This document shows, in pieces, positions 3,498-59,223 of a DNA stretch of 64,000 bases; position 1 is the stretch's first letter, and the number at the start of each line of letters is the position of its first letter. Origin of the DNA: Agarophyton chilense (Eukaryota; Rhodophyta; Florideophyceae; Gracilariales; Gracilariaceae); the NCBI GenBank assembly GCA_030374765.1, contig JARGXX010000117.1:992001-1056000 (forward strand), in the 5' to 3' direction. A program made the translations under genes and the position numbers. The notes under the pieces are model-generated. The model had not been told where the DNA came from, made no database searches, and saw only the letters and a list, made by a program, of their open reading frames with translations.

Positions 3498-3502
3498 GTA
3501 TC
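3498..3502 (+). repeat. Target site duplication of A, left (GTATC)
   Basis: GTATC lies directly before the 5' LTR. CTATC follows the 3' LTR at 12445-12449. Four of five bases match, consistent with a 5-bp duplication plus one later mutation. Confidence 0.6.
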
Positions 3503-4228
3503 TGTGGTGCACGCCCTCTGGGAGGGGTTCTGAAGGACTTAGTAGTTTTCCCGAAACATTCAAATGCGCATGGCGTAGCTGCAGCGCGCCGTGGCCCCGA
3601 CTTGGGTGCAACTAACACACGTGTAACGTGGTTGGCCCAGGAGAGGCTGGCACAGCATTGCTGGATATGTTCTCTATTTATTTAGATTTATTACACTAGG
3701 TTAGGGAGTTTTCTACAGTACTCTACACTATATAGTGCCAGGGCGATCTCGCCCTGACACTCAGTAAACTTCCCCAACCAGGGTTCTTGGCCCTAAGTCT
3801 TTTTCCGCTTTCGCGAGTCTTCCACACTCTACGGAGGTGAAGCCGCGTTACTAACGGTAGACTTATCCACCCTGCGTCAACAGGAGACTCACCGCTGTTA
3901 GCGTGTATATCTTTCATACCACTGCCGTGTTCTCGCCCCAGTATTGGGTTTGCTACATATTTCTTTTGGCTCTCGTGGCCCATGCCCCCGATCGCCCCCA
4001 CGGTGGTCCCTCCTTTATCACTTGCCCACTCCCGTGGAATACAGCTCATACCTGGTCTGCTCCTTTCTAGCATCCTGCACTCTCCCCGCTTGGCGTTCCG
4101 GTGAACCTCGGCCTTACACCCCGACTTAGTCGTGTTCACTCCGGAGAGGCTCCGTCGCCGTGCTACACTCCTTGGAAGAAGACTCGGACATCTTCGTGTG
4201 TTTCCGCCGCCCTTGGCGTTGCACTACT
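3503..4228 (+). repeat. Element A 5' LTR
   Basis: Starts TGTGGTGCACGCC. It ends GTTGCACTACT, where the 3' LTR has ACTACA, so the terminal base of this copy is mutated. The terminal 120 bases match the end of the element D LTRs, whereas the first part (U3) differs. It contains a palindromic TATA box followed by a perfect hairpin. Confidence 0.9.
3727..3756 (+). promoter_or_regulatory. LTR palindromic TATA plus hairpin (A 5' LTR)
   Basis: ACTATATAGT (3727-3736) is a self-complementary TATA-like box. Two bases later CAGGGCGA-TC-TCGCCCTG (3739-3756) forms a perfect 8-bp stem. The unit is conserved in the D LTRs with a changed loop (GA), so it is probably functional, perhaps as core promoter or R-region structure. 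The role is inferred. Confidence 0.5.
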
Positions 4229-4231
4229 AAC

Positions 4232-4249
4232 TGGTCTCCCGACTTAGAA
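4232..4249 (+). promoter_or_regulatory. Element A primer binding site
   Basis: TGGTCTCCCGACTTAGAA begins three bases after the LTR end. TGG is the complement of the tRNA CCA tail. The same site follows the U5 end of C and D. The predicted primer tRNA ends in CTAAGTCGGGAGACCA; I cannot name it. Confidence 0.75.
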
Positions 4250-4388
4250 AGCTAAGCGGACCTGGTTTGGTTGTTTTTCACATTGTTGTGCTCTCTTCTC
4301 TCGTCGAGATCTGCTTTCCAATTTCTTGGTTTGGAACCACTTGGTGGACGCTTTTGTTGTCCTATTCTTAGTGGTCAACTCTACAACC

Positions 4389-6518: not shown

Positions 6519-6555
6519 TTTCGGGAGTCTCCCCTTCGGGAGAGGCGTCCCCAAC
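6509..6555 (+). promoter_or_regulatory. Putative -1 frameshift site and hairpin (A)
   Basis: The last gag codons are GAA AAC TGA. The pol frame is -1 relative to gag and is open across this point. GGAAAAC is a near-canonical slippery heptamer with an AAC A-site codon. Twelve bases further on, TCTCCC-CTTC-GGGAGA makes a 6-bp stem with a tetraloop. C and D have the same arrangement. Confidence 0.5.
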
Positions 6556-7579
6556 ATTGAGGTTGACGACGCCCGAGGCGTCTCCGCCTCGCTCCCAGGT
6601 CAAAATCCTCTCAAGGAAACAGGCCGTCTCAGACGTGGACTCTGAACACTTTAGTGTTTTACGTCGACCGTGGAAACGGGTACATCACAACCGGTTCCCG
6701 GAAAGAGTCATGGTCATGGCGAAGCGAAACTTTAAAGTTTACGCTGACCTAGGCCTTACTACCAAGTTCATGGTGCGTTTTCTCACTGTGTTGGATACAG
6801 GTACAGAACCGAACTTCGTCGTGGATTCTATCCTACCACCTGCTTTGCAGTCGCAAATCCGCCGTGGCGTAGCATTAGACGCCGCTGACGCTGGTATCAA
6901 CCCGTTAGAAACGGTTGGAGTGATCGATTTGGTGGTACGCTTAGGACCCTGCGTCGTGAAGCTGCACTTTATTGTCTGTCGGTCACTCCCCGCCCCTCTC
7001 ATCTTGGGTTGTGGTTTTTGCGACCGTTTCGTCGAAGCGATTGTACCTTGCTTAAAGCGTGTGGAATTGGACGATGGATCCTCTGTTCCCATCGTCCGCC
7101 GTCCGCCGAAGCGTGCATCAAAGAAGCATGTTCCTCTTCCTGCTGCACAGGAGTTCCCCGCCGCTTTTCGCGAGTCTACAAAGCTTCGTGTCGACGAGTC
7201 GATTGGCATTCCGCCAAAGTCCCACTCTTGGGTGCGTGTCAGTTCTCGTCAGCACGGTACTCGAATCGTTCGACCGATACCATCACTGTCGAAAAGGCAT
7301 CAACTCGCTTTCGCGGATGGAATGGTTCCCATTGAGCCCGACAAGTCGTTTTGTGTATGTGTTTCCAACTTTGGAGAGAAACACCAGTATCTGGTTAGGA
7401 ACCAAGTCATTGGAAGAGTTGCTCCTCATTCCATGTCTATCTTTACCCTTCAAGGGGATCGTACCGGTTCAACCGGAATGGGTCACTCTGAGGAGGGGGA
7501 TAATCTCGTCGGAGGTCCCCAGTCTACGCTGAACTTATCCACACTGCCGTGTGTGTCGCCACCAGCAGTACTGGTTTAG
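6519..7579 (+). CDS. Protease region of element A pol
   Basis: Open in the -1 frame with no ATG needed; the first annotatable codon is TTG at 6557. It holds a retropepsin-like aspartic protease that would mature Gag-Pol. The active-site motif is VLDTGTEPNF and the second conserved stretch is APLILGCGFCDRF. The region after the protease is Lys/Arg/Pro rich and matches D (KRASKKHVPLPAAQE). The frame stops just before the place where RT should begin, because RT and everything to the integrase end is deleted. Autocleavage remains possible in principle. Confidence 0.75.
7489..7502 (+). promoter_or_regulatory. Internal polypurine tract copy 1 (A)
   Basis: TGAGGAGGGGGATA, nearly identical to the LTR-adjacent tract of this element (GAGAAGGGGGATA at 11706-11718), sits inside coding sequence in the protease-RT linker. 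C and D have a copy at the homologous place. Confidence 0.5.
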
Positions 7580-7657
7580 TTATCCAGTGGTTCTTGGATT
7601 ATTGTCATCGACTACCGTCGGTTCTGCCCGACTGACGTCGGAAAGATACCACCTGAG
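7580..7657 (+). pseudogene. RT remnant at the deletion junction (A)
   Basis: A short stretch reads SGSW..VIDYRRF, which resembles DGSWRFCIDYRRL of the RT fingers in C and D. The remainder of RT, RNase H and integrase is absent. This marks the 5' edge of the internal deletion. Confidence 0.5.
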
Positions 7658-10225: not shown

Positions 10226-11705
10226 TAGCCCACCTTGGTGGAGAGAAGGAGAACTATGGTTGTTTGGTCGGAAATGGAGAAGAAGGAGTATGGTTGGCTT
10301 TATTATTCATGCCGTTCATACAGGAGTGGCTCTCACTTGGTGTGAGGTCACAACAATGCTCGCTCTTAGCGGTCGGGTACCGACTGTTGTCGTGTCTGAT
10401 CGCCCCTTTCGTTTTCGGTTGTTTACACTTGATGGGTTTTTCATCCAGCTTGCTGGTTCACGATTGCTTCTGTGATCCGTAATCACGGTTTTTCTTCATT
10501 CGTTATGGTGTACAACAACCGATTGCATCGTTTCTTGATCAGCTTTGTTGCCGCTGGTCGCCCACGAGTCGTGGTGGTGAAGCCCCATACTTGGGATGTG
10601 GACTTGGTCCATCACCGCTGCGCGGGTGCTACTGTACACTACAGGTCACCTAGAGACCTTCCTCGTTTTTTTATTAATCGTTCAGAACGATTCGGCTCCC
10701 CGTTTGCTTACGGTTGCTTTCTCCGGAATCGGATGTTTCATCTCTACAGTAATACCTGGATTCCAGTTGCGGAAACCCCGTTACTTCAGGAATACTACTC
10801 TGATTCGGATGAGACTTGGACACAGACTATTCTGGAGATATAAAAGCGCCTTGGCGAAGACGAAACCCAATTATCTTGGAAAACGTCAGAGATATGACAT
10901 CTTTTCAGTTTGCCGCTCTATCCTTATCCTGAACTGAAACAGGTCGGGACTTCCCACTTTATGGTGTTCAATCTTCCCATTCTTGGGTGCAATTGAACGT
11001 TCTGCTTCTTGTGAGTACGCCGACTAGTCGGGTTAGTGCCAGGACTTTTGCATCTGAAGTCATCCGCGTTTTGCGTTGTGGACCGCTTTGAACCCGGTAA
11101 TCCTGGTTTGGACCGGTGGAAAAACCGCCCGTCCGCGGGAAGCTGGAACTCGGTTCGAGACACGATCTCCCTTTGGAGTTAGTAGACAGCACGGGAAGGA
11201 CACTGGACGTCAAGACCCACGGCACCGGGCACTAGCCGTGTTGACGAAGCTCGTGCGCTCCTACCCTTGCGGGGGGGAGGTGGTCCGATGATTCGGTGGC
11301 CGCGTACTCTCTCAGGGAGGAATCGGAACGCCTCAGGGAGGAATGTGAAGGCTATGAAGCTGACAAAAACACCTCATGGAGGGATATACCGCGCAAGCAG
11401 AGGTGCAACACAACCGAACAATCGGGATGGCGGACTACAGTATCCACGACAAGGGAACCCGACAATGAATGGTCGTGAAACTTGGTGATTGGTGATTGCG
11501 CTTCACTCTTGCTGAGGATCACAACTGCAACTCGCGGGGCGCACTGCGATCGTAGATAGAATTTCCCTCTCATGAGGATGAGCCGATAAAATCGGAGTGG
11601 ATTCGCTCCAGGCGGAGGTGTCTACCGGTAACCGAAATGTGGACGTGCACAGCGGATGTATTCCCGACGGCGTCGACGTCCCTCGTCGAGGTTGTCGCTC
11701 CGTCT
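10226..11705 (+). other. Unrecognised 3' internal region of A
   Basis: About 1.5 kb between the chromodomain stop and the polypurine tract. C and D have an antisense ORF in this interval; A shows no motif of it on either strand. The short plus frames (10260-10475, 10472-10843) and minus frames (10924-11225, 11352-11573) have no recognisable content. The first 35 bases after the stop still resemble D. Confidence 0.5.
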
Positions 11706-11718
11706 GAGAAGGGGGATA
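11706..11718 (+). promoter_or_regulatory. Polypurine tract of A
   Basis: GAGAAGGGGGATA lies directly before the 3' LTR and would prime plus-strand DNA synthesis. The same tract abuts the 3' LTR of C and D with small changes. Confidence 0.8.
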
Positions 11719-12444
11719 TGTGGTGCACGCCCTCTGGGAGGGGTTCTGAAGGACTTAGTAGTTTTCCCGAAACATTCGGATGCGCATGGCGTAGCTGCAG
11801 CGCGCCGTGGCCCCGACTTGGGTGCAACTAACACACGTGTAACGTGGTTGGCCCAGGAGAGGCTGGCACAGCATTGCTGGATATGTTCTCTATTTATTTA
11901 GATTTATTACACTAGGTTAGGGAGTTTTCTACAGTACTCTACACTATATAGTGCCAGGGCGATCTCGCCCTGACACTCAGTAAACTTCCCCAACCAGGGT
12001 TCTTGGCTCGAAGTCTTTTTCCGCTTTCGCGAGTCTTCCACACTCTACGGAGGTGAAGCCGCGTTACTAACGGTAGACTTATCCACCCTGCGTCAACAGG
12101 AGACTCACCGCTGTTAGCGTGTATATCTTTCATACCACTGCCGTGTTCTCGCCCCAGTATTGGGTTTGCTACATATTTCTTTTGGCTCTCGTGGCCCATG
12201 CCCCCGATCGCCCCCACGGTGGTCCCTCCTTTATCACTTGCCCACTCCCGTGGAATACAGCTCATACCTGGTCTGCTCCCTTCTAGCATCCTGCACTCTC
12301 CCCGCTTGGCGTGCCGGTGAACCTCGGCCTTACACCCCGACTTAGTCTTGTCCACTCCGGAGAGGCTCCGTCGCCGTGCTACACTCCTTGGAGGAAGACT
12401 CGGACATCTTCGTGTGTTTCTGCCGCTCTTGGAGTTGCACTACA
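11719..12444 (+). repeat. Element A 3' LTR
   Basis: Starts TGTGGTGCACGCC and ends GTTGCACTACA, a TG...CA terminus. Same length as the 5' LTR, with 13 differences counted. It carries the same TATA/hairpin unit at 11943-11972. Target duplication CTATC follows at 12445-12449. Confidence 0.9.
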
Positions 12445-16221: not shown

Positions 16222-16665
16222 TCAGTGGTTGTCACACGACCGCACAAACGACTTAAAATCGAAACAGGGTGCACTTAGACGGGTGGAGCTTGATGTTGAA
16301 TGACATGTAAAACTCGAAGAGTAGCGTAGCGTGATCGCCTTCAAAAGTTCACTGACAGTTTTTCCAAAGAGCAATATATCATCCAGCCACAGAAGCATCT
16401 GACGAGAGAGGTCCACTGAGATGCGTACTTGTACCGTAGACTGAAAGAGCATTAGAGCATTGGTCGTACCATGTAGGGTTCTTGTTGGAGAGAATATATC
16501 ATCCGGGGTTATAAAAGACTGACACGCTTGCGATGAATTTGCCAGAGGCAACTGCCAGTAACCATGGCTGAAATCGAATGGCAAAAAAGCTCGCGATCCC
16601 GCAACCTTGGAGATTTATTGCTTAATATTGGGCATAAAAAATTGGTGATTGACGGTGATACGCTT
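16222..16665 (-). pseudogene. Element B reverse transcriptase, downstream half
   Basis: Contains FDFSHGYWQLPLA and LLWLDDILLFG, the catalytic box with LDD in the place of the usual Y-x-D-D. On the element strand the sequence begins right at the element C boundary (16665). The matching upstream half lies beyond C at 28458-28650. One stop codon occurs just after the junction. Confidence 0.75.
16661..16665 (+). repeat. Target site duplication of C (CGCTT), partner CGATT at 28458-28462
   Basis: Five bases abut each outer LTR end of C, with one mismatch. The duplicated bases lie in the RT coding frame of B. Confidence 0.65.
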
Positions 16666-17581
16666 TGTGGAGCAAAACCCAGCGACGGGAAGTGCTCTCA
16701 AGGTGTTCGAAGCCTTGCTCCCTGGGGGACGCAGACTCAGAGACAGAGCCCTCCGTTCCACCCGTAGTGTGGGGTGTAACTCCCACGGGGGATTCCGGCA
16801 GTACCGACGGAGGTGAGGGGTAGAAACCGTTGGATCGGGAATGGGTATGGGTATCCCAAAGAATGGGGGAAAATCCGGCGAAGAGGAAAAACGGGGCGAG
16901 GGTCGGGCACTAACAGGCACCGGACCCGAGAACCAGAAAAGGGGCGAAACAACAAAAGAAACCCAATACAGGGGCGAAAACCTGTCCTCGAAAGGAAACA
17001 CAAAAAGCACGCAACAAGTAAGCAGAACCCCCACGGGGTATCGTGCACGTAGGTCGTCTAAGCGGTCCCAATGGGGTGGTTGCACGGAACCCAAACGTGG
17101 GCAATCTTCGAGTGGAGTCGTGTCCCTACGCAGGCGTTGCTAACCATAGCCCGTTCCGGGTTGTAAGGCTGAAATGATGGCGACGAAGAACCTCTAAAGG
17201 GATCGAAGACCAACCTTGGTTCCCATTTACTCTGAGCTTCGGACTGTCAGATCTCATCTCCCTAAGTAGGGCCCACTAACTAAACTCTACAGTAGTGCAC
17301 ACCTGCTCAGGGCCATACACGTGGAGATCCCACTGTCAGGGCCCAAAAGTCCAACGTTCTAACAAATATCCGAAAATCGGTGCCAAAATTAAGCCACGTG
17401 TATCACGGGGCCAATCTAACCATGGGCCATCCGAATTTTCACTTCATAGGCGAACTCTAACCAGAAAACAGTGCCACTTCAGCACACCTTAGAGGGGATC
17501 AAAGTCATAACCCTCGGAGGGTTCAATCCTCATTCTATGAGTTGCATCTTCAAGTATCCCCTAACTGGGCGTTGCTCTACA
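16666..17581 (-). repeat. Element C 3' LTR
   Basis: 916 bp. On the element strand it starts TGTAGAGCAACGCC and ends GGTTTTGCTCCACA. Paired with 27543-28457 (915 bp). Sequence differs from the A/D LTR family except for general layout. Confidence 0.92.
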
Positions 17582-17651: not shown

Positions 17652-17791
17652 CTTCTCTCCCAATGGGGTCCTTCACCACTTCTGAGGATCGCCACAAAAC
17701 CGGCACATCGGTACAACTTTCTTCTACTCCTCCGACTTTCGGCGATAAGCAACTTCTCGCAAAAGCAGTCTGAACCAGCCCTCTCAAGGGA

Positions 17792-19519
17792 ATGAATCCA
17801 TACGTCCTCAACCCACTCTCGGGGCCATCGGCCTCCGCGCCGGCGGACAACGAAGCTCCCCAGCAGGGTGGATATTTCTCCGGTTTGGATGAGGCTCCAT
17901 CAGGTACCGAACCTTCCGCCTCGGCGAGAAACCGACATCCTCAGGAGGATTTGGACATTAACGCGGTGGCGTGGAACTCCGCTCATGCGATGCCCTTGGT
18001 AGCAAACTCCAGAGGTTGGATCTCAAACGAATCCTTTCGAAGGTGGAGTCCCCTTACCGATCCGGTGATATATTCCCGCGCTCCGTGGTTCCATCCGACA
18101 GCGGTTCGCGACGATGAGCTCATCGACTCCTACGTGGAGGATGGCTTATTGCCGGGTGGCCTACCTATCGAGGTTGTACGTTCTCCCGATTGGAGGGCGC
18201 GGGTAGCCATAGAGCCTCAGTATCTATACCGCGGTCGCGGGGAGTCCCTGGACAAGGCGCGCGCAGCGATGGCGGCTCTGGCCTACCAGCGATTGGAGAG
18301 GTCACGCTTTGACCATCTGGTTCCCCCGGAGTACGGGTTCGATGTCGCCTATTACCGCACGTACGGTGAGGTCTCCTACGGGGATAACCTGGCAGCCTTT
18401 CCCGAAGCCGAGTTCCGCGGACCGGGTTTTCCTCTCCGAGAAGATATGCTCCAATGGAGTCGTCCCATCCTTCGGGCTGAATTCAGGTACCTTCAACGGC
18501 AGTTTACCCAGTATGGGTTCGATCGACGCGTGCGCTTCGAGCGCCGCTCGCGCTCCCGTTTCGGGTTCCTTGTCCCGTATCCTCACGTGGAACTGTAGCG
18601 TATCCGTAACACGGCGAAGGTTGGGGGATTCGTGCCCCTTCCAGCTTGGTGGAGTAAGGTCGAGGTCCCCCGAGGGTGCTTTGCTGAACTGCCCCCATGC
18701 ATCTACTATATCGGGTCTCGTTTGATGCACGACCCGAACTCGGGATACTGGGCCCTCGTTGCAGCCGAGTGGGCAGCCCGCGTAGCGGCGCACCTCCTCT
18801 GGGATGCTCATGACCATTTCCGTATCTGGTATATTCCTCCGATGCTACGGACCATCATGCGTCAGATCGACCTTGTCCCAGCGTTGGGTTCGGCCAGCAG
18901 CGTGCAGGACCTGTATCCAATCTTGGACGTGATCGACAACACCCAATGGGATCGAGTTCCAGTGGAAAATCAGCCCGCAGGGGAAGGATCCACGCGAGAC
19001 AAGTCTCCTGGCCGGTACGATCCGGGCTCCGGTAACTGGGTCTATTACAATCCCTTCGGAGGGGTTCGCATCAGCGCGGTGCAAGCACGGGCGCTGATTG
19101 ACTCGCCTCGACCGATGCCGGTGGGACACCCGACGGGGTTCATTTATACCGACGATTACGAGTACGAGCCTCCAGTAGACCTGGACGATCCAGCGTTGGA
19201 TAACGACATGCCAGCTCCTAGTGGAGTACTCCCTGTAGAGCCATCCGCACACTTCCAACCAGTGGGAACGACCTCAGCTGCGGCGGCGAATGCATCCGGT
19301 GGCGGTCCATCTGCTCCCCCCAGGTGGGGTGTGAACACCCTTGCGCAGGCGCCGGTTGCCACTCCGCAAGCGGATAGTGTGCGACAAGGCCTCGTGAACG
19401 CGGGCATTCCGATTCCCCCGGGTATGACGGATGTGAGCCAGATGTTGGCTTTCGCCTCGGCGTACCATCAGGGTCAGAATCCCAACGGTGGGGGGCGTCC
19501 CTCCTTGGGCTTTCCGTAG
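17792..19519 (+). pseudogene. Antisense accessory ORF of element C (unknown protein)
   Basis: On the strand opposite to gag-pol, one frame runs 576 codons from ATG 17792, interrupted only by TAG at 18596-18598. The product is homologous to the antisense ORF of element D. Shared motifs in order: APWFHP-x-AV; YxR-x-YRT-x-GE; RPI-x-RAEFRY; RFERR-x-RSRFG-x-LVPY; WWS...RGC...ELPP; EWA-x-R-x-A; LLW...W; and GHP-x-GF. Both proteins end in a Gly/Pro/Ala-rich tail with a predicted helix. I recognise no family and see no signal peptide or clear membrane span. It ends 390 bases before the chromodomain stop, tail to tail with pol. Plant Grande-type elements have antisense genes in the same place, but no similarity is claimed. 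Confidence 0.75.
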
Positions 19520-19909: not shown

Positions 19910-20200
19910 TCACCCGACTTGGGCACGATCCAGATTTGGAGGCAAGGTTACCCGAGCGCGTCGGTGATAGGATAAAACCTTAGACCTCGGAAGGTGCTCA
20001 ATGGGTTCCACTGTATACTCATCAGGCGAGAATCCGTACCATCGGACTTGGTAGCGAACTTCTCCCTCGGAAGTGTAGATGTGACGCACGATGCGATCGA
20101 TAACGAATTCCTGCGGGTACACTTTTCCCTGTTCGGGCTTCTCTTCCATCTTGGAACGCTCTAGTTCCCTTGAGGGTGTCAACGTAGGGTCTAGAGACAC
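19910..20200 (-). pseudogene. Element C chromodomain
   Basis: The frame contains FVIDRIVRHIY, VRYQVRWYGFSPDEYTVEP and HLPRSKVLSYHRR, aligned with the C-terminal chromodomains of A and D. It is in the same frame as the pol piece above (20750-23476) but separated by stops and rearranged sequence. The known role of the family is targeting of integration to chromatin. Confidence 0.75.
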
Positions 20201-20484
20201 CCCGGTGGGTTCTTTTCCGTGTTGTGAGCGGGTCTCAGCACTTCGTCCAAACGGCGCCGAGTGGCCTGTGGGCTACGTTGTAACTTCCGTCTACGGAGTC
20301 AAAACGGCCTAGTTTTAGATTCTTCTTAAAGCTGAGATCTTCTCGATAACAACAGTGTTCTTAGATTCCGTGACAGTTGAGAAACCGCGACGCGGTAGCG
20401 TCTCCAATCTCAGGGGGGTAAGACTTCAACGTCAACCCGAGCTACGGGGACGAAGGTTGCTCTTGTGCAACGCGCCGTGCGACG

Positions 20485-27540: not shown

Positions 27541-27542
27541 CT

Positions 27543-28457
27543 TGTGGAGCAAAACCCGGCGACGGGAAGTGCTCTCAAGGTGTTCGAAGCCTTGCTCCCT
27601 GCGGGAGGCAAACTCAGAGACAGAGCCCTCCGTTCCACCCGTAGTGTGGGGTGTAACTCCCACGGAGGATTCCGGCTGTACCGACGGAGGTGAGGGGTAG
27701 AAACCGTTGGATCGGGAATGGGTATGGGTATCCCAAAGAATGGGGGAAAATCCGGCGAAGAGGAAAAACGGGGCGAGGGTCGGGCACTAACAGGCACCGG
27801 ACCCGAGAACCAGAAAAGGGGCGAAACAACAAAAGAAACCCAATACAGGGGCGGAAACCTGTCCTCGAAAGGAAACACAAAAAGCACGCAACAAGTAAGC
27901 AGAACCCCCACGGGGTATCGTGCACGTAGGTCGTCTAAGCGGTCCCAATGGGGTGGTTGCACGGAACCCAAACGTGGGCAATCTTCAAGTGGAGTCGTGT
28001 CCCTACGCAGGCGTTGCTAACCATAGCCCGTTCCGGGTTGTAAGGCCGAAACGATGGCGACGAAGAACCTCTAAAGGTATCGAAGACCAACCTTGGTTCC
28101 CATTTACTCTGAGCTTCGGACTGTCAGATCTCATCTCCCTAAGTAGGGCCCACTAACTAAACTCTACAGTAGTGCACACCTGCTCAGGGCCATACACGTG
28201 GAGATCCCACTGTCAGGGCCCAAAAGTCCAACGTTCTAACAAATATCCGAAAATCGGTGCCAAAATTAAGCCACGTGTATCACGGGGCCAATCCAACCAT
28301 GGGCCATCCGAATTTTCACTTCATAGGCGAACTCTACCAGAAAACAGTGCCACCTCAGCACACCTTAGAGGGGATCATAGTCATAACCCTCGGAGGGTTC
28401 AATCGTCATTCTATGAGTTGCATCTTCAAGTATCCCCTAACTGGGCGTTGCTGTACA
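27543..28457 (-). repeat. Element C 5' LTR
   Basis: 915 bp, TG...CA ends on the element strand, partner of 16666-17581. Abuts the B reverse transcriptase on its outer side. Confidence 0.92.
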
Positions 28458-47444: not shown

Positions 47445-47449
47445 CTTTT
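47445..47449 (+). repeat. Target site duplication of D (CTTTT), partner at 59224-59228
   Basis: CTTTT abuts both LTR outer ends exactly, showing a complete insertion. Confidence 0.85.
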
Positions 47450-48243
47450 TGTAGTGCAACGCCAAGGGCGGCGGAAACACACGAAGATGTCCGAGTCTTC
47501 CTCCAAGGAGGGTAGCACGGCGACGGAGCCTCTCCGGAGTGAACACGACTAAGTCGGGGTGTAAGGCCGAGGTTCACCGGCACGCCAAGCGGGGAGAGTG
47601 CGGGATGCTAGAAGGGAGCAGACCAGGTATGAGCTGTATTACACGGGAGTGGGAAATTGATAAAGGGGGGACCACCCAGTGGGGGCGATCGGGGGCATGG
47701 GCCACGAGAGCCAAAAGAAATATGTAGCAAACCCAATACTGGGGCGAGAACACGGCAGTGGTATGAACGATATACACGCTAGCAGCGGTGAGTCTCCTGT
47801 TGACGCAGGGTGGATAAGTCTACCGTTAGTAACGCGGCTTCACCTCCGTAGAGTGCGGAAGACTCGCGAAAGCGGAAAAAGACTTAGAGCCAAGAACCCT
47901 GGTTGGGGAGGTTTACTGAGTGTCAGGGCGAGATCGCCCTGGCACTATATAGTGTAGACTACTGTAGAGAGCTCCCTAACCTAGTGTAATAAAGATAAAT
48001 AAATAGAGAAATATCCAGCTATGCTGTGCAAACCTGTCCTGGGCCACCCGTGGGACACGTGGGTAAGTCACACCCGAATCGGGGCCACGGCGCACGGCCG
48101 CCGGTGCACTTCGCGTACAACGCGTATACACCTGGCTACGCCAGCCCGCTAGTAGCGGTATTACTCATAGATCTCACAAGTATCGCCCGAGGCGAAAAAA
48201 CAACCAAGTCCTGGAAAACGGCCCTCACGAGGGTTGCACTTCA
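47450..48243 (-). repeat. Element D 3' LTR
   Basis: 794 bp. Element strand starts TGAAGTGCAACCC and ends GTTGCACTACA. Its last 120 bases match the A LTR. TATA/hairpin unit at 47924-47953. Confidence 0.93.
47924..47953 (-). promoter_or_regulatory. LTR palindromic TATA plus hairpin (D 3' LTR)
   Basis: ACTATATAGT (47944-47953) and the 8-bp stem CAGGGCGA/TCGCCCTG (47924-47941) with loop GA, as in A where the loop is TC. Because the TATA box is self-complementary it could fire toward the antisense ORF as well as along the element. That use is inference. The 5' LTR carries the same unit at 58904-58933. Confidence 0.45.
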
Positions 48244-48278: not shown

Positions 48279-50216
48279 ATGGTGGGCGACGCGCCGAGAC
48301 GAATGCATAAGAGTGCAACCAGCTCGCTGGGATCCACTTCATCGGATGCCAACAAACGCAGTGCGGCAAAACTCCAGTCTCCTGGCAACAACCGTTCTCA
48401 ACGTTCCATCTCAACCGAATCCGCATCCTTGCGTGCCAGTCCTCCGATTCCTCGGCATCGTCTCCCGCTTCGCCGGTCTCCTCTTCCGGTCATCCGGCCT
48501 CTTCGCTCACCGATGAGCAACCAAAACAATCAACCCAACCGTCTCCCTGCGGGGTACTTCTCCGGCTTCCGGTCCGTTCCGCTTCCGCAAAGCGCGTCAT
48601 GAGCTGCGCCGCAGATTCCTATCGCGAACGCGGCTGCTGCTCCGTACGGAATGTTCCCCCCGAGAGGGTGGCCGCCATACGACATGCTTGTCGGGCGCCA
48701 TCCTGGGCATCATGCGTCCGTTCTCCGGCTTGCGCCGTGGTTCCACCCGATTGCGGTGTTAAAAGAAGCGCTCATAGCGACGTACACCGATGGAAACGGG
48801 ATGCTTCCGGGCGATATTCCGGCCGTGGCGACCACTTCGTTGGATTGGCGACGCCGCGTAGCGGTTCCGGTCCACGCTGTGGCGCGCCGGGGTAGGGAAA
48901 CCTCGGCTTCCGCTCATGCGGCCTTCGTCCTTCTTGGCCATCAACGGCTTCGCCGGGCTCCTTTCGAATTTTTCATCCCCGATGGTCTCGGCACCGACAT
49001 TCGGCTTTACCGCACCCAAGGTGAGATTGGTTACGTCGACCGCCTGGCGGGTTTGGAAACACTCTCGTGGAGGGGCATCCCGATAGCACGGCAAGAGGCC
49101 ATGTGCTGGACGCGACCGATTATCCGGGCAGAATTCCGCTACATGCGTCGACTTGCGCGGGCCAACTTCCTCGCCCTGATCCGCTTCGAGCGTCGAGCAC
49201 GATCCCGATTCGGGTATTTGGTCCCGTATCAGAACGTGGAGATCGAACGCCTTCGCTTGGCCGACCGACGGGGTCGCTATGTCCTCATTCCACCGTGGTG
49301 GTCGAACCTCGAGGCCTGCCGGGGCTGTTACATCGAGCTGCCACCCGTCATCACGTATTACGGTTCGTACGTCATCGAGGATCCCGAGTCCGGACTGTGG
49401 TCCGTGGTGATTACCGAATGGGCAGTCCGCGCGGCGGTGTTCCTCCTCTGGGAGGTGTATGACCAGTACAGACTTTGGTTCCTCCCGTTCCGGTTGAGGT
49501 CCGCGATTCGCAGCCTGGACCTGAGCATCCCACTTGGTGGAGTAACCAACGCCGGGGAAGTGGCGGGTCTTCTCGATTACATCGACCAGTTGGACTGGAC
49601 CGCCGTTCCGATTGAACAAAGCGGGCGCACCGTGGGTAGCCGGGGTCAGGACCTGTCACCAGGAAGGCGTACTCCCTTGGGAGGTGATTTCGTATACTTT
49701 GACCCCTGGGAAGGGCACGAAATCTCCGCGGAGGAAGCGAACGAACTCCGGTTTGCACCACTCCATATCCCCGAGGGGCATCCCATCGGTTTCGTGGACG
49801 CGGATGAATATTACCACGTCTACGACGGCGACGATCCAATGGTGGACAACGAACCCGACGACGGGGAAGCGTACGCCGAGGCGGAGGTCGAGGGATCCGA
49901 AGCGGAAGGTCCTTCTAACGCAGGGACGCCAGCCACGCCTTACGCGGGTTTGGATAACCCCGCGGCGGCTGGGTCGGAGTACGCGGTAGCTGGACCACTT
50001 CCGGTTCCACCGGTGAATCTCCCAAGTGGTGGGGCGTCCGCCCCAGGCGATGCGAGCTCCGCTCCGGCAGGTCAAGCGGCCGTGATCTCCCAGTTCCTGC
50101 GACAGGTGGGGCTGGGGACCAACGCAGCGAGTGGCGATGCTGCTGCGATGCGCGAGGCCTTGATCACCCGCCTCCAGGGAGGTAACCAACCCGGGGGCGG
50201 TGAGCCGAACCCGTGA
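48279..50216 (+). pseudogene. Antisense accessory ORF of element D (unknown protein)
   Basis: Opposite in strand to gag-pol and starting 36 bases inside the 3' LTR. The frame is 646 codons from ATG 48279, interrupted only by TGA at 48600-48602; the part after it (from ATG 48651) is 521 codons. The N terminus is Ser/Arg rich and shares a GYFSG motif with the C copy. The middle is the conserved part: APWFHPIAV, RPIIRAEFRYMRR, RFERRARSRFGYLVPY, WWSNLEACRGCYIELPP, LLWEVYDQYRLWFLP. Many Trp and Arg positions are kept in C. The end is acidic, then Ala/Gly/Pro rich. Unrecognised; no catalytic motif seen. Pol ends 180 bases away in tail-to-tail orientation. Confidence 0.8.
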
Positions 50217-50394: not shown

Positions 50395-53300
50395 TTATCC
50401 CACCTGGGCTTTAACAACCGATGCCGGGATTCCCGTCCGCGTTCTGCGGTGATATGACACCACCTTCGAACGTGGGAGATGTTCCATCGCCTCATCCGAA
50501 TCCCATTCGGGCCCTAAACCGTACCAACGGACGAGATATTGAATATAACCATCCGGATGGTATGAGTGCCCCACTATGTGGTCGACCACGAACTCCTTCT
50601 CGTAGACTTCCCGCCCTTGCAGTGTACGCGTCACCGGACCAAACAGGTGTACGTCCGCGGGTGCGTGTGGGCTACTGTGCCCTTCCCCCGAGGGGTCCAT
50701 GGGTTGGCGTTGCCTTTCCATGCCCTGGGTAGGGGAACGAACCGGGTTCCGGGTTGCCTTGGCCGCTTGGCGGGTTGTTTACGCCAAGGCGTCATGACGA
50801 AGAGCGTCAGTTCGACAGCTTCGGCCGGAGGCCTTCCCGTGGGGCAATTCTCCCAGTTTTTGGGTCGAAATGCTTTCCGAGAGTTCTCGTGCAGAGGCTA
50901 CCCTTCGGGGGAACGCGGACTCATCCCAAAGCTGGGTTTCGCGGTTGCGTTCCGCGAGTCGTCGGGGTGAAATCCGTCGCGACGGTGCTGGACTTGACGC
51001 GGGAGGCAGTTTCATCACGGGGCGTCGTGCCTTGCCGGGTGATCCGCCTTGGGCGTTGATTGGCGTATCTCCCGAGCCGGGTGTCGTCTGGTCACGTGAC
51101 ACGTCCGGCTGATGGCTGGGAGTACTCCGCGCAGTGCTGCGTTCCGCCTCCTCACGTGAGGGCGTGTGCAACGGCGCTGCCGGTATGTCTGCTCGCTTAA
51201 GCGACACAGTACCGCGACGGGCGTGCAACTCCGGGTCAACCGTGCCTTCCTCACCAACGGGCGGCGACGTGCGCGGCGAGGAACCCCTGCGGGGAGCGAG
51301 TTCGTCCTCGACTATCCCTTTCGAGGGTTCAACTTCACTCGGCGACGAGGTGCTTCCGTCCTTGACGGGCACATTATCCGGGGGGACCGGTGCGCCTTCG
51401 ACAACGCTGTCGGGGTCAACCGAGACACTCGGAGTGCGTCCGCCACTTCGCGCGGGTTCTGAACCAGCATCAAGCGTGCTGGGTGTGAATCTCCCGTCTG
51501 CTACGGTGTGCTTGCCCGGCTTAGCCGGTGTGTCCTGCCGTACAGTACGAGGGACCACTTCCGATCGATTCGGCCTAGAGGGGCCTGCGAGGGCGTGCTC
51601 TAAGTTTTCCAGCGTAGCTGGTGTCGACGAACCGTGACCCACGGGCTGCGGGTCAACGCTCGACGGCATAGCCGGTCCAGTATCGCGAGGGCAAACAGCA
51701 TCCTGCGACGATTTCGGTTTCGCTTCGGCGAGAGGGTTTCCACTACGTGGTGCGTCCTGTCGAGTAGAGTCCCCGTGGGGAGTGCGATCAGACGCAGATG
51801 CGGTGGCGCTTCCCATAGAGGGTTCAGCAACGGCTGTAGCGCCCAAATGTGGAGGTGGCACGTCGGTAGACGGGACGTCCTGGTCACCGTTGTTCTTTCT
51901 GGTGTGTCCAGGAGTCCGTGCACCACGGTTGTCATGACGCGACGAAGCGGTTTCCGTCTCTCGACGAGAGTTATGAGCCTCCTCCCCCTCCTGAGACGGA
52001 GCGGCATGGGGAGTGGTTGAAACGCCCAACGGGCGGGGATAGACACCGCGCCGTGGCGTGAGAGAAGAGAGGCCATTCTGGCCTTGGTCCGATAAGATCG
52101 GCAAGTCAGAGAGTCCCTGGGTAGGGTGTGGTAACGCAGAAGGTCTGGAAACCACGGCAGTGGGCTGAGCCACCGTTGTGTGCCGAGCACCATCATCCTC
52201 AGAGAGGGATTGTTGACCCATTTCGGTTACTTCCAACGTCGGTGGAGGGGCGAGTACAACGCGGTCGCGGGAGATCCGCTCATCAGCGTCGACAATTTCC
52301 ACCACGATGGTGTCGTCTTTCACCGAAATGACCTTGTAAGGACCGTCCGCGACGGAAGAAAGCTTGTGCTTCTTTTCCTTTTCAGGGTTCCAGTACTCCT
52401 TACGGACGAACACGAAGTCCCCGGCTTTGATTGGCGGGGCCTTACCGCATACACGAGAGTCGAAATCACGCTTGTAAGCTGCTTGGGCAGGAGCCATCGA
52501 GCTTCGGGCGACCGGGATCAGCTTCGTAAGCCACTCTTTCCACCTGTGGCGATAATCCTTCACGGAAGGGAACGCATCCAGCGTGGGCTGGGGTTCTAAC
52601 GCGACAGCCGGCGGAGGGCGGGACAAGACCAGTTCGAATGGACTCAAGCCCGTAGTACGGTGTACCTGCGTATTGTACGCGAACGTCAAGGCGTCGGTAT
52701 ATAAATCCCATGTCTTTGGGTAATTGGCAACGTAAGAACGGAGAGACGCTAATAGCGTTCGGTTAAACCGCTCCACTTGCCCATTACACTGGGGGTGATA
52801 GGTCGTTGTGAACAGGTTCTTGATGTCAAGAATCCTGCACACGTCCTCGAAGAATCGCGATGCGAACTGTTTTCCGTTATCGGATAGAAGATTAATCGGC
52901 GGGCCGTAGACGAATACCCAATGGGTTACAAATGCTTGTGCAACCGTGAAAGCGGATATCTTCCGTAAAGGTACGGTCCGAACCAGTTTTGAGAAACGAT
53001 CCGTGATAACGAGTAAAAACTTATGCCCACGTCGTGTGGTGAGGAGCTCGCCGAGGATGTCAATGGCGACAAACTCGAGAGGAGCCCGTGCCGGGAATAG
53101 TTTCAACTTCGTTGAGTACTTGCGAAGTTTCACCCGATTCTTAGCACATTCGGTACAAAACCGCACCGTTGCGTAGCAATCCACCGCCAGGGCGGGCCAG
53201 TACAAGTTCCTTCGCAAAGTGAGGTAGAGTTTCCGTCCACCGGCGTGTCCACCAAGTTTCGCATAGTGCGATAGATGCAAAACTGTAGACTGTAGAGCAT

Positions 53301-55141
53301 GCGGCACCACGACTTGTGGTGATGACTGAACCGTCCTGACGAGGTATCCAAGATCGTTCACCTCGAAAGGGAGTTGTGCACCGCCATTAAGCCAGGCGCG
53401 AATCTTCGTACAGAAGGGGTCACCCTGCTGTTCTCTGACCATCTTCTCCGGGGGTATCGGCACAAAATCACCCGGCGGGGGTTTCTTTGAATCGTCCGAG
53501 ACGAGCAATGCGTCAATATCATCGTCCGATTCCGGGCTTTCGTTCCATTTATCGTGTAACCAATCCGGGTTTCCCGGTGTTCCATCGTCTACGACGAAGC
53601 AAGGTATATCCTCGTCATCGACGGCTAGAGCTTCCCCATTCGTGGGTAAACACGAGAGCGCGTCCGCTTGCGCGTTCTGAGTGCCCTTCTTGTAGATCAC
53701 TTCAAAGTCATATTCCGCGAGGCGGAGTCTCCAACGCATTAAGCGGCCTGACGGCTCCGAGATGGTCATGAGCCATCGTAGGGACGAGTGATCCGTGTAA
53801 ACGGTAAAGTGCACACCCATGAGGTAGGGGCGGAGTGTAGAGAGGGCCTACACAACTGCGAGGCACTCCTTCTCCGACACGGAGTAGTTCCGCTCGTGGA
53901 CATTGAGCGAGCGTGACCAGTACCCAATGGGTGTGCGTTCTCCTTCGGGAGTAGTTTGAAAGAGCGCACAGCCTACCTGGTAGTCGCTAGAGTCCGTGTC
54001 CACGGACAACGGTAGTCCGGGTTTCGGTAGCGAAAGAATCGGTGCTGATGTGACAGCCTCTCTAAGGGAGTTAAAAGCATCCGTCTGGGCGGACGTAAAG
54101 GGGTCCAGTTTAGGTGGTTGACCTTTCCGCAGAAGCGCGTTCAAGGGGGCCGCGATGTCAGCGAAGTTAGGGATAAACCGTCGGTAGACGTTGACCAATC
54201 CTAGAAAGGAGCGCAGTTCCGTCTGGGTAGCGGGTTCTTTCGCCTTGCGAAGGGACCTCACTCGAGCTTCCTCGATCATTACACGTCCAGGACGGGTAAT
54301 GTGCCCGAGATACTTCACAGTATCGGTAAAGAACTCACATTTCCTCAGTTTGAGGGTTATTCCAGCGTCACGTAGCGTGGTCATTATGTCCCTGACTTGG
54401 GTGAGATGGTCATCCAGATTGTCTGAGAATACAATGATATCGTCCAAATAGACGAGGCAAGTACGCCACTTAAAGCGGGCCAACAAAATGTCGATAGCAC
54501 GCTGAAAGGTAGCGGGAGCATTGGTTAGACCAAAAGGCATCCGTTTGAAACGGTAGAGTCCCGAGTGACAGACAAACGCAGTCTTATCTTGGTCCTCCTC
54601 CCTAACGGGAACCTGCCAATATCCCCAATTGGCGTCCAAAGCCGTGAACACGGTAGCAGTGCCGAGAGAGTCGATGTACTCATCCATTCGTGGGATCTGA
54701 TACACGTCCTTGACGGTAACATCATTCAAGCGACGGTAGTCGATGCAAAAGCGCCAGGACCCATCGGGTTTCGGAGCCAGTACCACTTGGGATGCCCACG
54801 GCGACTGAGCCGGTTCGATCACTCCAGCTCGGAGCATTTTGTCCACTTGGAACTGTTCCTCTTCTCGAGCCTTGGGGCCTGCCCTGTAAGGGTGTTGAGC
54901 CACCGGTCGGGTGTTCGGCAATAAATCAATCCGGTGTTCCGTTGTATTTATCTCACCAAGAGAGCCATCCTACATTGTGGTAAACTCCCGTAACATCTCA
55001 CGCAGACTTTCACGGTGTGACTCCGATACATGACCGAGGTCGAGTTCCTCGAGTTCTTTCACGGGGTCTACCCGGTCGTAACTCGTCGGAACGGGCTTCT
55101 TTTCTGTTTCGGCAGGTTGCGATTCCGAATCATTTCGGTGA
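50395..55141 (-). pseudogene. pol: Element D RT-RNase H-integrase-chromodomain
   Basis: One frame from about 55150 to the stop at 50395. It is broken by TAG 54970-54972 and TAG 53848-53850 (both at Trp codons) and TAA 50779-50781 (at a Glu codon of A). RT is intact in its own motifs: DGSWRFCIDYRRLN, RMPFGLTNAPATFQ and VYLDDIIVF (catalytic box 54439-54450). RNase H: SVDTDSSDYQVGCALF; VYTDHSSLRWLM. Integrase: HHCC finger ending CTECAKN, core DRFSK, LLSDNGKQFASRF, QVERFNRT; GPY/F VADGPYKVISV. A tail of about 430 residues rich in Ser/Pro/Thr precedes the chromodomain (FVVDHIVGHSY, YLVRWYGLGPEWDS) at 50395-50600. Unlike C, the chromodomain is still in frame with integrase. Confidence 0.9.
51982..51994 (-). 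promoter_or_regulatory. Internal polypurine tract copy 2 (D)
   Basis: TCAGGAGGGGGAG in the post-integrase linker. It shares the D-specific CTCAGGAGGGGGA form of the LTR-adjacent tract rather than the CTAAGG form of C. Confidence 0.5.
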
Positions 55142-56142
55142 TTAGACGGCAGTTTCCTCCCCCTCCTTAGAGTGAACGAGACCGAGGACTTCGGCAGCGG
55201 TCAGCTTAGTGGGGACCATCGCGGTGGGGTGAGGCATTACCGATCCAATAACTTGGTTTTTCACCAGTGACTGGGGGTTTGAGCCCAGATTGGCAACGAG
55301 CACGGTGAACGGCTTGTCTGGGACAATCTGCGCGAATCCATTCGCCACGGCGAGTTGATATCCATCGTACAGAGATGAGAGAGGCTGAATGACTCGTAAA
55401 CCGTGTTGACGGGAAGTGACACGCACCCATACTTGGGACTCTTGCGGGATTCGGACAGATGCAGCCACGCGGAGCTTGGTAGACTCCCGAGAAGCGGGTG
55501 GAGGTTCCTGCGCGGCAGGGAGCGGTACGTGCTTCTTGGAGGCACGCCGCAGCGGACGACGGACAATCGGGACCGACGAGCCGTCTTCCATCTCAACACG
55601 CTTTAGGCGGGGCCTTATGGCGTCAACGAATCTGTCACAGAAGTCACATCCCAAGATGATGGGGGCAGCCAATTTCCGGCATACAATAAAGTCGAGTTTC
55701 ACCACGAAGGAGCCCAAGCGAACGACGAGAGCGACGGTTCCAACCGTTGACAACGGGTTGTTATTTGCGTCCGCGACGTCGGGCGCCACGCCAAGGCGGA
55801 TCTGAGACCGCAAGGGCGGGGGCAGCAGCGACTCCACGATGAAATTCGGACCAGCACCTGTGTCCAAAACAGTAAGGACTCGAACCATAAACTGGGTAGA
55901 AAGGCCAAGGTCTGCATAAACCTTGTAATTGCGCTTGGCCATTACTAAGACTCTATCCGGGAACCGGCGGTTAAGAACACGTTTCCACGGTCGACGTAGA
56001 ACACCAAAGTGTTCAGAGTCCACGTCTGAGACGGCCTGTTTCCTCGTAAGGATTGTGACCGGGGAGCAAGGCGGAGACGCCTCAGGCGTCGTCAACCTCA
56101 CTGTTGGGGACGCCTCTCCCGAAGAGGACACTCCCGAAATCA
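55142..56142 (-). pseudogene. Element D protease region
   Basis: In the -1 frame relative to gag and open across the gag stop. Retropepsin motif VLDTGAGPNF (DTG at 55856-55864) and AAPIILGCDFCDRF. It ends at TAA 55142-55144, one base out of register with the RT frame. In C the same junction is continuous, so D has suffered a single-base-type frameshift within the 30 bases around 55142, next to an internal polypurine tract. Confidence 0.8.
55157..55169 (-). promoter_or_regulatory. Internal polypurine tract copy 1 (D)
   Basis: TAAGGAGGGGGAG in the protease-RT linker, identical to the copy at the same place in C. Confidence 0.5.
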
Positions 56143-56149
56143 GTTTTCC
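56106..56149 (-). promoter_or_regulatory. Putative -1 frameshift site and hairpin (D)
   Basis: Gag ends GAA AAC TGA; heptamer GGAAAAC at 56143-56149. Downstream CCTCT-TCGGG-AGAGG makes a 5-bp stem. The stem position is as in A, but the paired bases are changed on both sides, which suggests conserved pairing. Confidence 0.5.
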
Positions 56150-58269
56150 TGAGTCCCATCCGCCTGGGGCGGGGCCTCAGAATCCTGAACCACTAGCAAT
56201 GGGGCGCCAGCGGCGGGGTTTGAAGGAACGGGGCGGTGGTCGGGAGCCTGCTCGGCAGGGTAAAGCAACGCATTGCGCGGTTTCGCCTCCGGAATACTCC
56301 GTGGAAAATCGATCTTCGCTCGAAGATACGACGTCATCGGAACAATCCGCTTTTCCCCTGGGGTCAACGCCTCATAATTACCGATTACTCGGGCTACTTC
56401 CCTCATGGTGAGGATACAGTCCGGTATAATGTGACCGTGTTCGTAACATATGTGGCATATGAGTCCCGGGCGTGAGGGCTGCAAACCGGAGCGAGCATCC
56501 GTGAACTTCACCGCTTGGCGGGCATCCTTCCATCCAGGGCGACTCTGTCGGAGCGCACCGTTTGAATACGGGATGCGAGGTCCGTGAACACGGGGAGAGT
56601 CTGCGTACAGCAGGGGTCCATCCTGGGCCGTGTCATATGATTCGTCCGTCGTAGACGGTAGTTCGGTTGTCGGGACCGAATGGATATCGCTTCGGGCGAA
56701 GTGTACGTTGTCGTACTCCTGTTGGGAGCGCTCACTCGCAATCAGCGATAGGGATGGCGACTTCGTTTCCATCACTAACGCCTTGGCGGTTCGCGACCTG
56801 TGTCCGGGGGCACGAGCTCTTAAAGCGTCACCTTCCGCTTGCGCGTGTTGGACCAACTCCAGATACGTGGTTTTCCTTCGGTCTTCCCGGTAACGGGCCA
56901 CGAGTGTTCGGATAGTGGGGTTCAGTCCATCGATGAACATGGTGCAGCGCTCTCCGGCGGATTGTACGTTCCCACTACGGTGGAAAGCCTTGTTCAGGCG
57001 CACCGAAAATTCGGTTTCCGTTTCTCCAGACTTCTGGCGCGTATCGCGAAGAGCGAGAATGGCCGACTGAATCGCGTGATTAGTGGCGTAGGACCTCAAG
57101 AGGTATTGTACTGCTTCTGGCCAGCAGGTTACCCCTCCTTCGGAGGCTCTAGACGAACCTCTTACAGAGTTGTATTGATCCTCGGCGAGGCCTTTCATAA
57201 AGTACGGGAGTGCAATAAACGCCTGTCCTTCGGTCATACCGAGAATATCCGCTTCGGCGACGAACCTCGCAAGGAAATCCAACACCAAAATGGGGTCTTC
57301 TCCAGAAAAGTTCTGGTTCCTGAGGGACAGTTGCATACGATTTATGCAATCCTTCACTCTACCCGTGCCACGGGGCGTGCGATCCAAAGAGGAGTTCTCT
57401 AGCCGATAGTATCGGTAAGAAACCAACTTCTTGTACAGGGGGTTGGTGCATTTCAGCTCCTTCAACCCGGAGTGTTTCCTTCCCTTCTCGCGGGCGCGGA
57501 TCACACCTTGGGTGGCAGACGACCGTTTAGAACGGGATGAACGCCTGCGATGGCCATCGTCAGAAGAAGAATCTGACGAGTCCGACCCATTTGAATGGTG
57601 AGAGCCACGCGACGACCGTGAGGAGTTCGACGAGTCCGAGTCATCGCTGTCACGCTTTCCACGCCGACGGCGGGTATCGTCCCTTTTCCTCTCGTGTTTC
57701 GCTTGGTGCGACACAGCAACCGGCTTCTTTGGGACGTCTTCCATCAAGATGGTTTGCTCTAACGTCTGGAGACGGGCGCTAACACGATTGAATCGGGTCT
57801 CGACACCTTCCACGTAAGCGGCAGGACCACCAAAACATTCCAACAGGGTGTTGACGTCCGCCCGCAACACGCTGAGGTCGTCAACCACTTCCTTCATAGA
57901 AGAGCCATCACACCTGGAACGCAGGGCTTCGAACTCTTCCACGAAGGCATTGTGCGCTTCCCGCATTACGCGGATCTGCTGCCTCACACTTGAGTTTATG
58001 TCGATGTGGAACTCGTTTTTCTGGGCCTTTTCGTCGGCAGGAGCCGGGTCATCCACGGCAGGGGCCGGACCAGCACCAGAGTTAGGTCCGTTCTTCGACG
58101 CCTTAGGCGGTATCTTGTTGTTCTTGGAGGAGTTCGACCCCTTACTCTTGCCTTTCGGAGCGGCCTGAGGTAACGGCGGGGGAACCCTTCCAGGGTCCGC
58201 AGGCGCCACGTCATTGATGGAACGGCTCCGCGTGATCGCGGGTTCCGCTTCCGTCGGTAGTCGTGACAT
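56140..58269 (-). CDS. gag: gag of element D (intact)
   Basis: 709 residues from ATG 58269 (MSRLPTEAEP); the open frame extends farther upstream into the LTR, but this ATG matches the A copy. Domains: basic/Pro-rich N terminus, coiled-coil-like middle (VRQQIRVMREAHNAFVEE), Asp/Ser tract (SDDSDSSNSSRSSRGSHH), Gag core (FSGEDPILVLDFLARF to LRDTRQK) and CCHC knuckle (CHICYEHGHIIPDC). The C terminus is Gln-Glu-Asn-stop at the recoding site. This is the only intact gag in the window, so it could assemble particles. Confidence 0.9.
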   Translation of the reverse strand: MSRLPTEAEPAITRSRSINDVAPADPGRVPPPLPQAAPKGKSKGSNSSKNNKIPPKASKNGPNSGAGPAPAVDDPAPADEKAQKNEFHIDINSSVRQQIRVMREAHNAFVEEFEALRSRCDGSSMKEVVDDLSVLRADVNTLLECFGGPAAYVEGVETRFNRVSARLQTLEQTILMEDVPKKPVAVSHQAKHERKRDDTRRRRGKRDSDDSDSSNSSRSSRGSHHSNGSDSSDSSSDDGHRRRSSRSKRSSATQGVIRAREKGRKHSGLKELKCTNPLYKKLVSYRYYRLENSSLDRTPRGTGRVKDCINRMQLSLRNQNFSGEDPILVLDFLARFVAEADILGMTEGQAFIALPYFMKGLAEDQYNSVRGSSRASEGGVTCWPEAVQYLLRSYATNHAIQSAILALRDTRQKSGETETEFSVRLNKAFHRSGNVQSAGERCTMFIDGLNPTIRTLVARYREDRRKTTYLELVQHAQAEGDALRARAPGHRSRTAKALVMETKSPSLSLIASERSQQEYDNVHFARSDIHSVPTTELPSTTDESYDTAQDGPLLYADSPRVHGPRIPYSNGALRQSRPGWKDARQAVKFTDARSGLQPSRPGLICHICYEHGHIIPDCILTMREVARVIGNYEALTPGEKRIVPMTSYLRAKIDFPRSIPEAKPRNALLYPAEQAPDHRPVPSNPAAGAPLLVVQDSEAPPQADGTQEN

Positions 58270-58408
58270 GGTTGTAGCGTTGACCACTAAGAATAGGACA
58301 ACAAAAGCGTCCACCAAGTGGGTCAAAACCAAGAAATTGGAAAGCAGATCTTGACGAGAGAAGACAACACAGCAATGTGAAAAACAACCAAACCAGGTCC
58401 CCTTAGCC

Positions 58409-58426
58409 TTCTTAGTCGGGAGACCA
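58409..58426 (-). promoter_or_regulatory. Element D primer binding site
   Basis: TGGTCTCCCGACTAAGAA on the element strand, three bases after the 5' LTR. It differs from A and C at one base. Confidence 0.75.
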
Positions 58427-58429
58427 GTT

Positions 58430-59223
58430 TGTAGTGCAACGCCAAGGGCGGCGGAAACACACGAAGATGTCCGAGTCTTCCTCCAAGGAGGGTAGCACGG
58501 CGACGGAGCCTCTCCGGAGTGAACACGACTAAGTCGGGGTGTAAGGCCGAGGTTCACCGGCACGCCAAGCGGGGAGAGTGCGGGATGCTAGAAGGGAGCA
58601 GACCAGGTATGAGCTGTATTCCACGGGAGTGGGAAATTGATAAAGGGGGGACCACCCAGTGGGGGCGATCGGGGGCATGGGCCACAAGAGCCAAAAGAAA
58701 TATGTAGCAAACCCAATACTGGGGCGAGAACACGGCAGTGGTATGAAAGATATACACGCTAGCAGCGGTGAGTCTCCTGTTGACGCAGGGTGGATAAGTC
58801 TACCGTTAGTAACGCGGCTTCACCTCCGTAGAGTGTGGAAGACTCGCGAAAGAGGAAAAAGACTTAGAGCCAAGAACCCTGGTTGGGGAGGTTTACTGAG
58901 TGTCAGGGCGAGATCGCCCTGGCACTATATAGTGTAGACTACTGTAGAGAGCTCCCTAACATAGTGTAATAAAGATAAATAAATAGAGAAATATCCAGCT
59001 ATGCTGTGCCAACCTGTCCTGGGCCACCCGTGGTACACGTGGGTAAGTCACACCCGAATCGGGGCCACGGCGCACGGCCGCCGGTGCACTTCGCGTACAA
59101 CGCGTATACACCTGGCTACGCCAACCCGCTAGTAGCGGTATTACTCATAGATCTCACAAGTATCGCCCGAGGCGGAAAAACAACCAAGTCCTGGAAAACG
59201 GCCCTCACGAGGGTTGCACTTCA
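58430..59223 (-). repeat. Element D 5' LTR
   Basis: 794 bp, 10 differences from 47450-48243. TATA/hairpin unit at 58904-58933. Confidence 0.93.

Follow-up and report, generated by a model that had tools for sequence, protein, structure and literature searches.

A conserved open reading frame antisense to gag-pol in several families of Ty3-type chromodomain retrotransposons of the red alga Agarophyton chilense

Introduction

Plant Grande retrotransposons, which are bounded by long terminal repeats (LTRs), carry an extra antisense open reading frame (ORF) between pol and the 3' LTR. Human T-cell leukaemia virus type 1 (HTLV-1) possesses HBZ, a retroviral antisense gene near the 3' LTR with an accessory role. 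VANC-type proteins, in turn, are anti-silencing factors of plant DNA transposons. Here we describe a conserved ORF that lies antisense to gag-pol in two LTR retrotransposons, elements C and D, of the red alga Agarophyton chilense (Florideophyceae, Gracilariales). Both elements are located in a window of 64,000 nucleotides (nt), by which we mean the whole stretch of DNA that was analysed, namely positions 992,001 to 1,056,000 of contig JARGXX010000117.1 in the assembly GCA_030374765.1.

The algal ORF is compared with that of Grande by position: it is antisense to gag-pol and follows pol on the side of the 3' LTR. In contrast to Grande, its protein matches no family in Pfam and is found in at least five chromodomain Ty3 families of one genome. 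With HBZ it has in common the character of an antisense accessory gene near the 3' LTR, again compared by position and not by sequence; however, its protein is about three times longer, and LTR-driven transcription is something we infer for the algal elements. VANC is likened to it by description, since each would be an accessory product able to work in trans where copies are silenced, but the element class differs and such a function is proposed for the algal protein.

Results

Homologous antisense ORFs in elements C and D

The antisense frame is represented in the window by the following features:

48279..50216, + strand: antisense ORF of element D, interrupted in frame by a single TGA at 48600-48602
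48603..50213, + strand: open part of the D antisense protein (537 amino acids), used as search query
17774..19519, + strand: antisense ORF of element C, with a TAG at 18596-18598; a further stop at 17771-17773 closes the frame upstream

In both elements the ORF runs counter to gag-pol and occupies the interval from the chromodomain to the 3' LTR. The two proteins share 42% identity over 197 and 204 residues (E values of 3e-33 and 4e-49, from single comparisons), and when all six frames of C and D were compared, the antisense pair scored 340 bits and the runner-up, the mirrored frame on the sense strand, 188 bits. An earlier note, made from the letters of this DNA, had claimed homologous antisense ORFs at this place in two elements with LTRs of different families, and the observation is confirmed by these values together with the LTRs themselves, between which only short matches of at most 23 nt occur. 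The five motifs named there (APWFHP, RAEFRY, RFERR-x-RSRFG, WWS...ELPP and GHP-x-GF) are visible in both proteins. The accompanying statement that each copy has a single stop, at a different place, applies to D with its TGA, but C has two stops if its frame begins at the ATG at 17663.

Two candidate starts are available in D, one at 48279 (MVGD...), 36 nt from the LTR edge, and one at 48513 (MSNQ...). At the second of these, family G also reads MSN, E has M-D and C has M-N. The candidate start of C is at 17792 (MNPYV...); a further ATG, located upstream at 17663 and separated from the LTR edge by 82 nt, is severed by the stop at 17771-17773. Because the stops of the D antisense ORF and of pol are about 180 nt apart, the two are convergent.

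Open copies and further families in the genome

The genome was searched in the form of an assembly of 79.8 Mb in 135 contigs. A search for carriers, based on short coding patterns that avoid the codons of C and D, showed that the antisense gene occurs in at least five families of elements (C, D, E, F and G). Nearest to D is locus L058 (family G) with 53.5% protein identity; the two loci of family E, L056 and L059, share 36-37% identity with D, and the truncated L057 (family F) is 42% identical to C versus 35% to D. With F as query, 11 matches of 66-100% identity were listed that cover all or some of its 99 residues; one match lies in an open frame of 455 residues. Candidates for further carriers are the pattern hits at C77:506059, C96:892297 and C97:191630 and two F-like hits in C95 and C103. 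A pol with integrase adjoins the gene in opposite orientation in L056, L057 and L058.

From a list of 40 copies of D, drawn up by DNA similarity, the second to the twenty-first (20 copies) were read together with the adjacent part of pol. Eight of them are free of stops up to the common end of the span 48516-50216, in which no copy carries an insertion or deletion. Each in-frame stop occurs in a single copy, except at codon 89 of the span, where two copies have different stops. For C, 29 copies were selected because their proteins resembled the second half of the ORF; of these, we counted 19 that are free of premature stops and frameshifts over 17774-19519. One further copy is stop-free but has a one-base insertion, and one of the remaining copies is uncovered at its start. 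Protein searches gave, among the matches listed, 38 of 82 (D), 99 of 129 (C), 72 of 103 (G) and 55 of 130 (E) as stop-free in the searched span, in lists that favour the best-preserved copies and, for D, include partial matches. Part of the candidates was scored (81 of 1977 for D, 129 of 1520 for C, 103 of 1800 for G and 130 of 1567 for E), and the candidates may include other families, so that these figures are not copy numbers. Open copies are numerous in C, D, G and E; the earlier note had named the absence of any other open copy as a refutation, and this does not apply.

Some matches recur at short distances. Three G matches with equal scores lie 9197 bases apart on one strand in C68:3138295-3157903, two G matches lie 9249 bases apart in C77:296003-306466, and C22:1511003-1529537 holds three D matches with less regular spacing. 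These are possibly tandem arrays of elements.

Selection on the antisense frame between families

The decisive evidence for selection lies between families and not within them. A pairwise codon model was applied to all six frames, with stop-free copies of C and D and with copies of G and E that contain one stop each. For D and G, the ratio of nonsynonymous to synonymous change (dN/dS) in the antisense frame is 0.12 (531 codons, dS 3.4, twice the log-likelihood difference, 2dlnL, 195), and for D and C it is 0.067 (539 codons, dS 10, which is saturated, 2dlnL 122). Four of the other frames gave 1.83, 2.68, 1.64 and 2.86 for D-G and 1.35, 2.68, 1.30 and 2.94 for D-C, and the mirrored frame gave 0.29 with 31 stop-bearing codons and 0.26 with 37, respectively. 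A ratio of 1 was also rejected for D-E, C-G, C-E and G-E (2dlnL 90-143), pairs in which synonymous change is saturated and the ratio itself is not estimable. In an alignment of D and G made from DNA only and blind to frame, identity at antisense codon positions 1, 2 and 3 is 0.68, 0.70 and 0.43, and frame-blind alignments of D-C, E-D and C-G have the same shape. Between families the antisense ratio is thus far from 1, and no sense frame is both open and constrained.

An open frame may be a by-product, either of biased codon usage or of coding on the sense strand. Such an origin would be in line with the low ratio of the mirrored sense frame and its 188 bits between C and D, and also with the copies of D, within which the antisense frame is hardly distinct from two others. 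However, the mirrored frame is interrupted by the 31 and 37 stop-bearing codons mentioned above, and its low ratio is expected because it shares third codon positions with the antisense frame. The remaining sense frames lie between 1.3 and 2.9, and the antisense frame is stop-free in the copies of C and D used, with one stop each in G and E. On the strength of the six-frame ratios and the DNA-only alignment, an artefact of this kind was ruled out, and we leave it a negligible probability. That the antisense frame encodes a real selected protein is almost certain.

Structure of the elements

Elements C and D consist of the following parts:

47448-59223, gag-pol on the - strand: element D, delimited by an LTR pair
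47448..48243, - strand: 3' LTR of D, 98.7% identical to the 5' LTR of D
58428..59223, - strand: 5' LTR of D, 98.7% identical to the 3' LTR of D
50395..50778, - strand: chromodomain ORF at the end of D pol (Pfam), convergent with the antisense ORF
50779..53847, - strand: D pol with the end of RNase H and the zinc-binding and core domains of integrase (Pfam)
53848..54969, - strand: reverse transcriptase and part of RNase H of D (Pfam)
56140..58587, - strand: gag-like ORF of D (Pfam match under the curated cut-off)
16665-28457, gag-pol on the - strand: element C, delimited by an LTR pair
16665..17581, - strand: 3' LTR of C, 98.1% identical to the 5' LTR of C and unrelated to the D LTR
27542..28457, - strand: 5' LTR of C, 98.1% identical to the 3' LTR of C
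19910..20272, - strand: chromodomain ORF of C (Pfam)

C and D are Ty3-type chromodomain LTR retrotransposons. According to Pfam, both encode reverse transcriptase, RNase H, the zinc-binding and core domains of integrase and a chromodomain, in that order; the chromodomain scores 30.8 bits in C and 25.0 bits in D, against a cut-off of 25.1. The customary LTR features, namely TG..CA ends, a primer-binding site, a polypurine tract and a short target duplication, were read by eye. In the same way we found CTTTT on both flanks of D and one mismatch in five bases between the flanks of C. The polypurine tract adjoins the 3' LTR in both elements and is placed in D between the LTR and the antisense ORF, and a primer-binding stretch starting TGGTCTCCCGACT is common to C, D and a third element of the window, A. 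Next to element C lies a fragment of a further retroelement with RNase H and the integrase zinc-binding domain (15015-16091, - strand; Pfam).

Probable inheritance of the gene together with pol

The best tree has the same topology, (D,G),(C,F) with E apart, whether it is built from the antisense protein or from the integrase region. Support for D-G and C-F is 100/99 and 82/83 in the antisense tree and 85/89 and 96/97 in the integrase tree; F fills 26% of the columns of the antisense tree, and a tree limited to the part shared with F leaves the forks unresolved. On the simplest reading, the ancestor shared by all five families would already have possessed the gene and passed it on together with pol.

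An ancient insertion might have produced a similar distribution, if the gene of another mobile element, for example a DNA transposon, had become integrated antisense to gag-pol ahead of the divergence of C, D, E, F and G and were now carried as a passenger. The orientation opposite to gag-pol and the absence of a domain common with LTR elements would suit a passenger, but a passenger is expected to decay, in contrast to the constraint between families and the agreement of the best trees seen here. Moreover, Pfam found no transposase domain in the antisense protein, and we regard this origin as highly improbable. A host gene captured once by an ancestor of the elements deserves more attention, either with a host-like role or with copies kept for host use. 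LTR elements are known to capture host genes, and the antisense protein has no match to a retroviral or transposon domain in Pfam. Against a host role stands the element pol beside the gene in all 20 copies of D as well as in L056-L058 (the stretch of L059 is too short to tell), and we consider capture unlikely.

The predicted protein

The two open copies encode 645 residues in D (from an ATG) and 631 residues in C (from a GTG), with isoelectric points of 7.3 and 5.4. Pairwise identity among C, D, E and G peaks at about residues 61-420 in D, with the Q of MSNQ counted as residue 1. Near its C-terminus the D protein has an acidic stretch with a net charge of -21 over 110 residues, compared with -8 in C. 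The predicted product is a protein of about 565-645 residues, of which a core of some 360 is conserved, whereas the tail varies and is acidic or rich in proline.

Searches of Pfam, NCBIfam and PDB sequences returned no relative above cut-off; the only matches were weak (DUF3905, below the cut-off, with E values of 0.12 and 0.24, and a cytochrome P450 chain with 0.26). The impression of the earlier note that the protein belongs to no recognised family holds when novelty is judged against these three libraries. In a viral contig collection, two peptide patterns yielded 118 pattern matches, none of which was confirmed as a relative. AlphaFold2, run on the window sequences only (3 rows), reached a mean predicted local distance difference test score (pLDDT) of 33.9.

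The gene occupies the position of retroviral env, which raises the question of an envelope-like or virion structural protein made from a spliced or antisense RNA. The highest hydropathy over 19 residues in the D protein is 1.54, just below the customary threshold of 1.6 for a membrane span. However, the C protein reaches only 0.93, the proteins of D and C contain three and two cysteines, respectively, and the gene lies on the opposite strand. A structural protein of this type seems to us quite improbable, and we prefer to regard the product as accessory.

A relative without the gene

The window contains a further element that is related to D:

3500..12443, + strand: element A, LTR relative of D without the antisense gene

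The LTRs of A and D are about 93.7% identical and their gag sequences 91%. In the three long ORFs of the one A copy read, Pfam found no reverse transcriptase, RNase H or integrase; the matches obtained were gag-like and chromodomain, both under the cut-off. The sequence that A has at the place of the antisense gene shows no DNA similarity to D and is present in the genome in 16 copies at 91-100% identity and in four weaker fragments. Because this gene-less relative was amplified, the gene product probably acts in trans. This suggests that the antisense product, like reverse transcriptase and integrase, can be supplied in trans.

Other features of the window

An ORF of 1281 residues with a BED zinc finger (Pfam E value 5e-11) lies at 35951-39799 on the - strand; we presume that it may be a hAT-type transposon gene. 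A copia-type gag fragment (PF14223, E value 2e-18) is located at 44497-45000 on the - strand. Within the window, no tRNA and no Rfam match at the gathering threshold were found. For the hydrophobin and STE3 families no match was obtained, and none in the control genomes either.

Discussion

The earlier reading of a real conserved antisense gene of an unrecognised family is supported by our analysis. We consider it likely that the ORF is a genuine accessory gene of a Ty3-type chromodomain lineage, placed antisense to gag-pol between the chromodomain and the 3' LTR.

Several results weigh against this view. Synonymous change is saturated for D-C and amounts to 3.4 for D-G, and in the integrase region dN/dS is 0.04 (D-G) and 0.008 (D-C), compared with 0.12 and 0.067 in the antisense frame. 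The antisense gene is constrained, clearly less than integrase and, for D-G, about three times less. Within D the pairwise ratio is 0.70, and two other frames are nearly as low with 0.73 and 0.77. The two halves of C gave 0.59 and 0.41 versus 0.63 and 0.42 in the mirrored frame, the second half being biased by the choice of copies for similarity there, and two copies of E (E-E2) gave 0.78, which is not significant. In a context-matched test, neither the shared variants of D (0.82) nor the private ones (0.95) deviated significantly. The shared variants of C gave 0.51, with 0 of 2000 shuffles as low, a result that we do not use as proof; the C signal is confined to the query half (0.36), and the other half, at 0.81, is not significant. 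Element A was read in one copy only, and when the LTR edges were scanned for TATA motifs in four families, nothing shared emerged. The check on copies that the earlier note had proposed is thus answered in part: the ratios within D and C do lie below 1, but only moderately, and in D the frames are hardly distinct. A weak signal within families is expected if most changes follow insertion.

As with the antisense genes of some retroviruses, a transcript antisense to gag-pol would originate within the 3' LTR or directly next to it and proceed towards pol. The distances between LTR edge and ATG, 36 nt in D and 82 nt in C, are at most suggestive of an LTR-driven start, and we give antisense transcription from in or beside the 3' LTR a somewhat better than even chance. 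The protein product would act in trans on element RNA, on element proteins or on host silencing, and would not be needed in cis. Candidate activities are the regulation of transcription, the protection of element RNA and the counteraction of silencing. That the role is exerted in trans and is regulatory or anti-silencing, not structural, is conceivable, with a probability that we place slightly under one half. The antisense RNA would pair with the genomic RNA, which may lead to a conflict with silencing. We speculate that the elements could represent a lineage with a fixed two-strand genome, in which an antisense gene, acquired long ago, would be transcribed out of the 3' LTR against the genomic RNA of the element. 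Its product, of a new protein family, would counter the host silencing provoked by such convergent, double-stranded RNA; it would work in trans, and gene-less relatives such as family A could live off it. Taken as a whole this scenario is rather improbable.

In conclusion, chance may readily leave an LTR element with an open antisense frame, and the occurrence of this ORF in several families of one genome, constrained in a single frame, provides a clean test. The case described here offers a protein family unmatched in the libraries searched, many copies and a natural comparison between gene-bearing and gene-less elements. The role of antisense accessory genes for a retrotransposon is thereby made directly testable.
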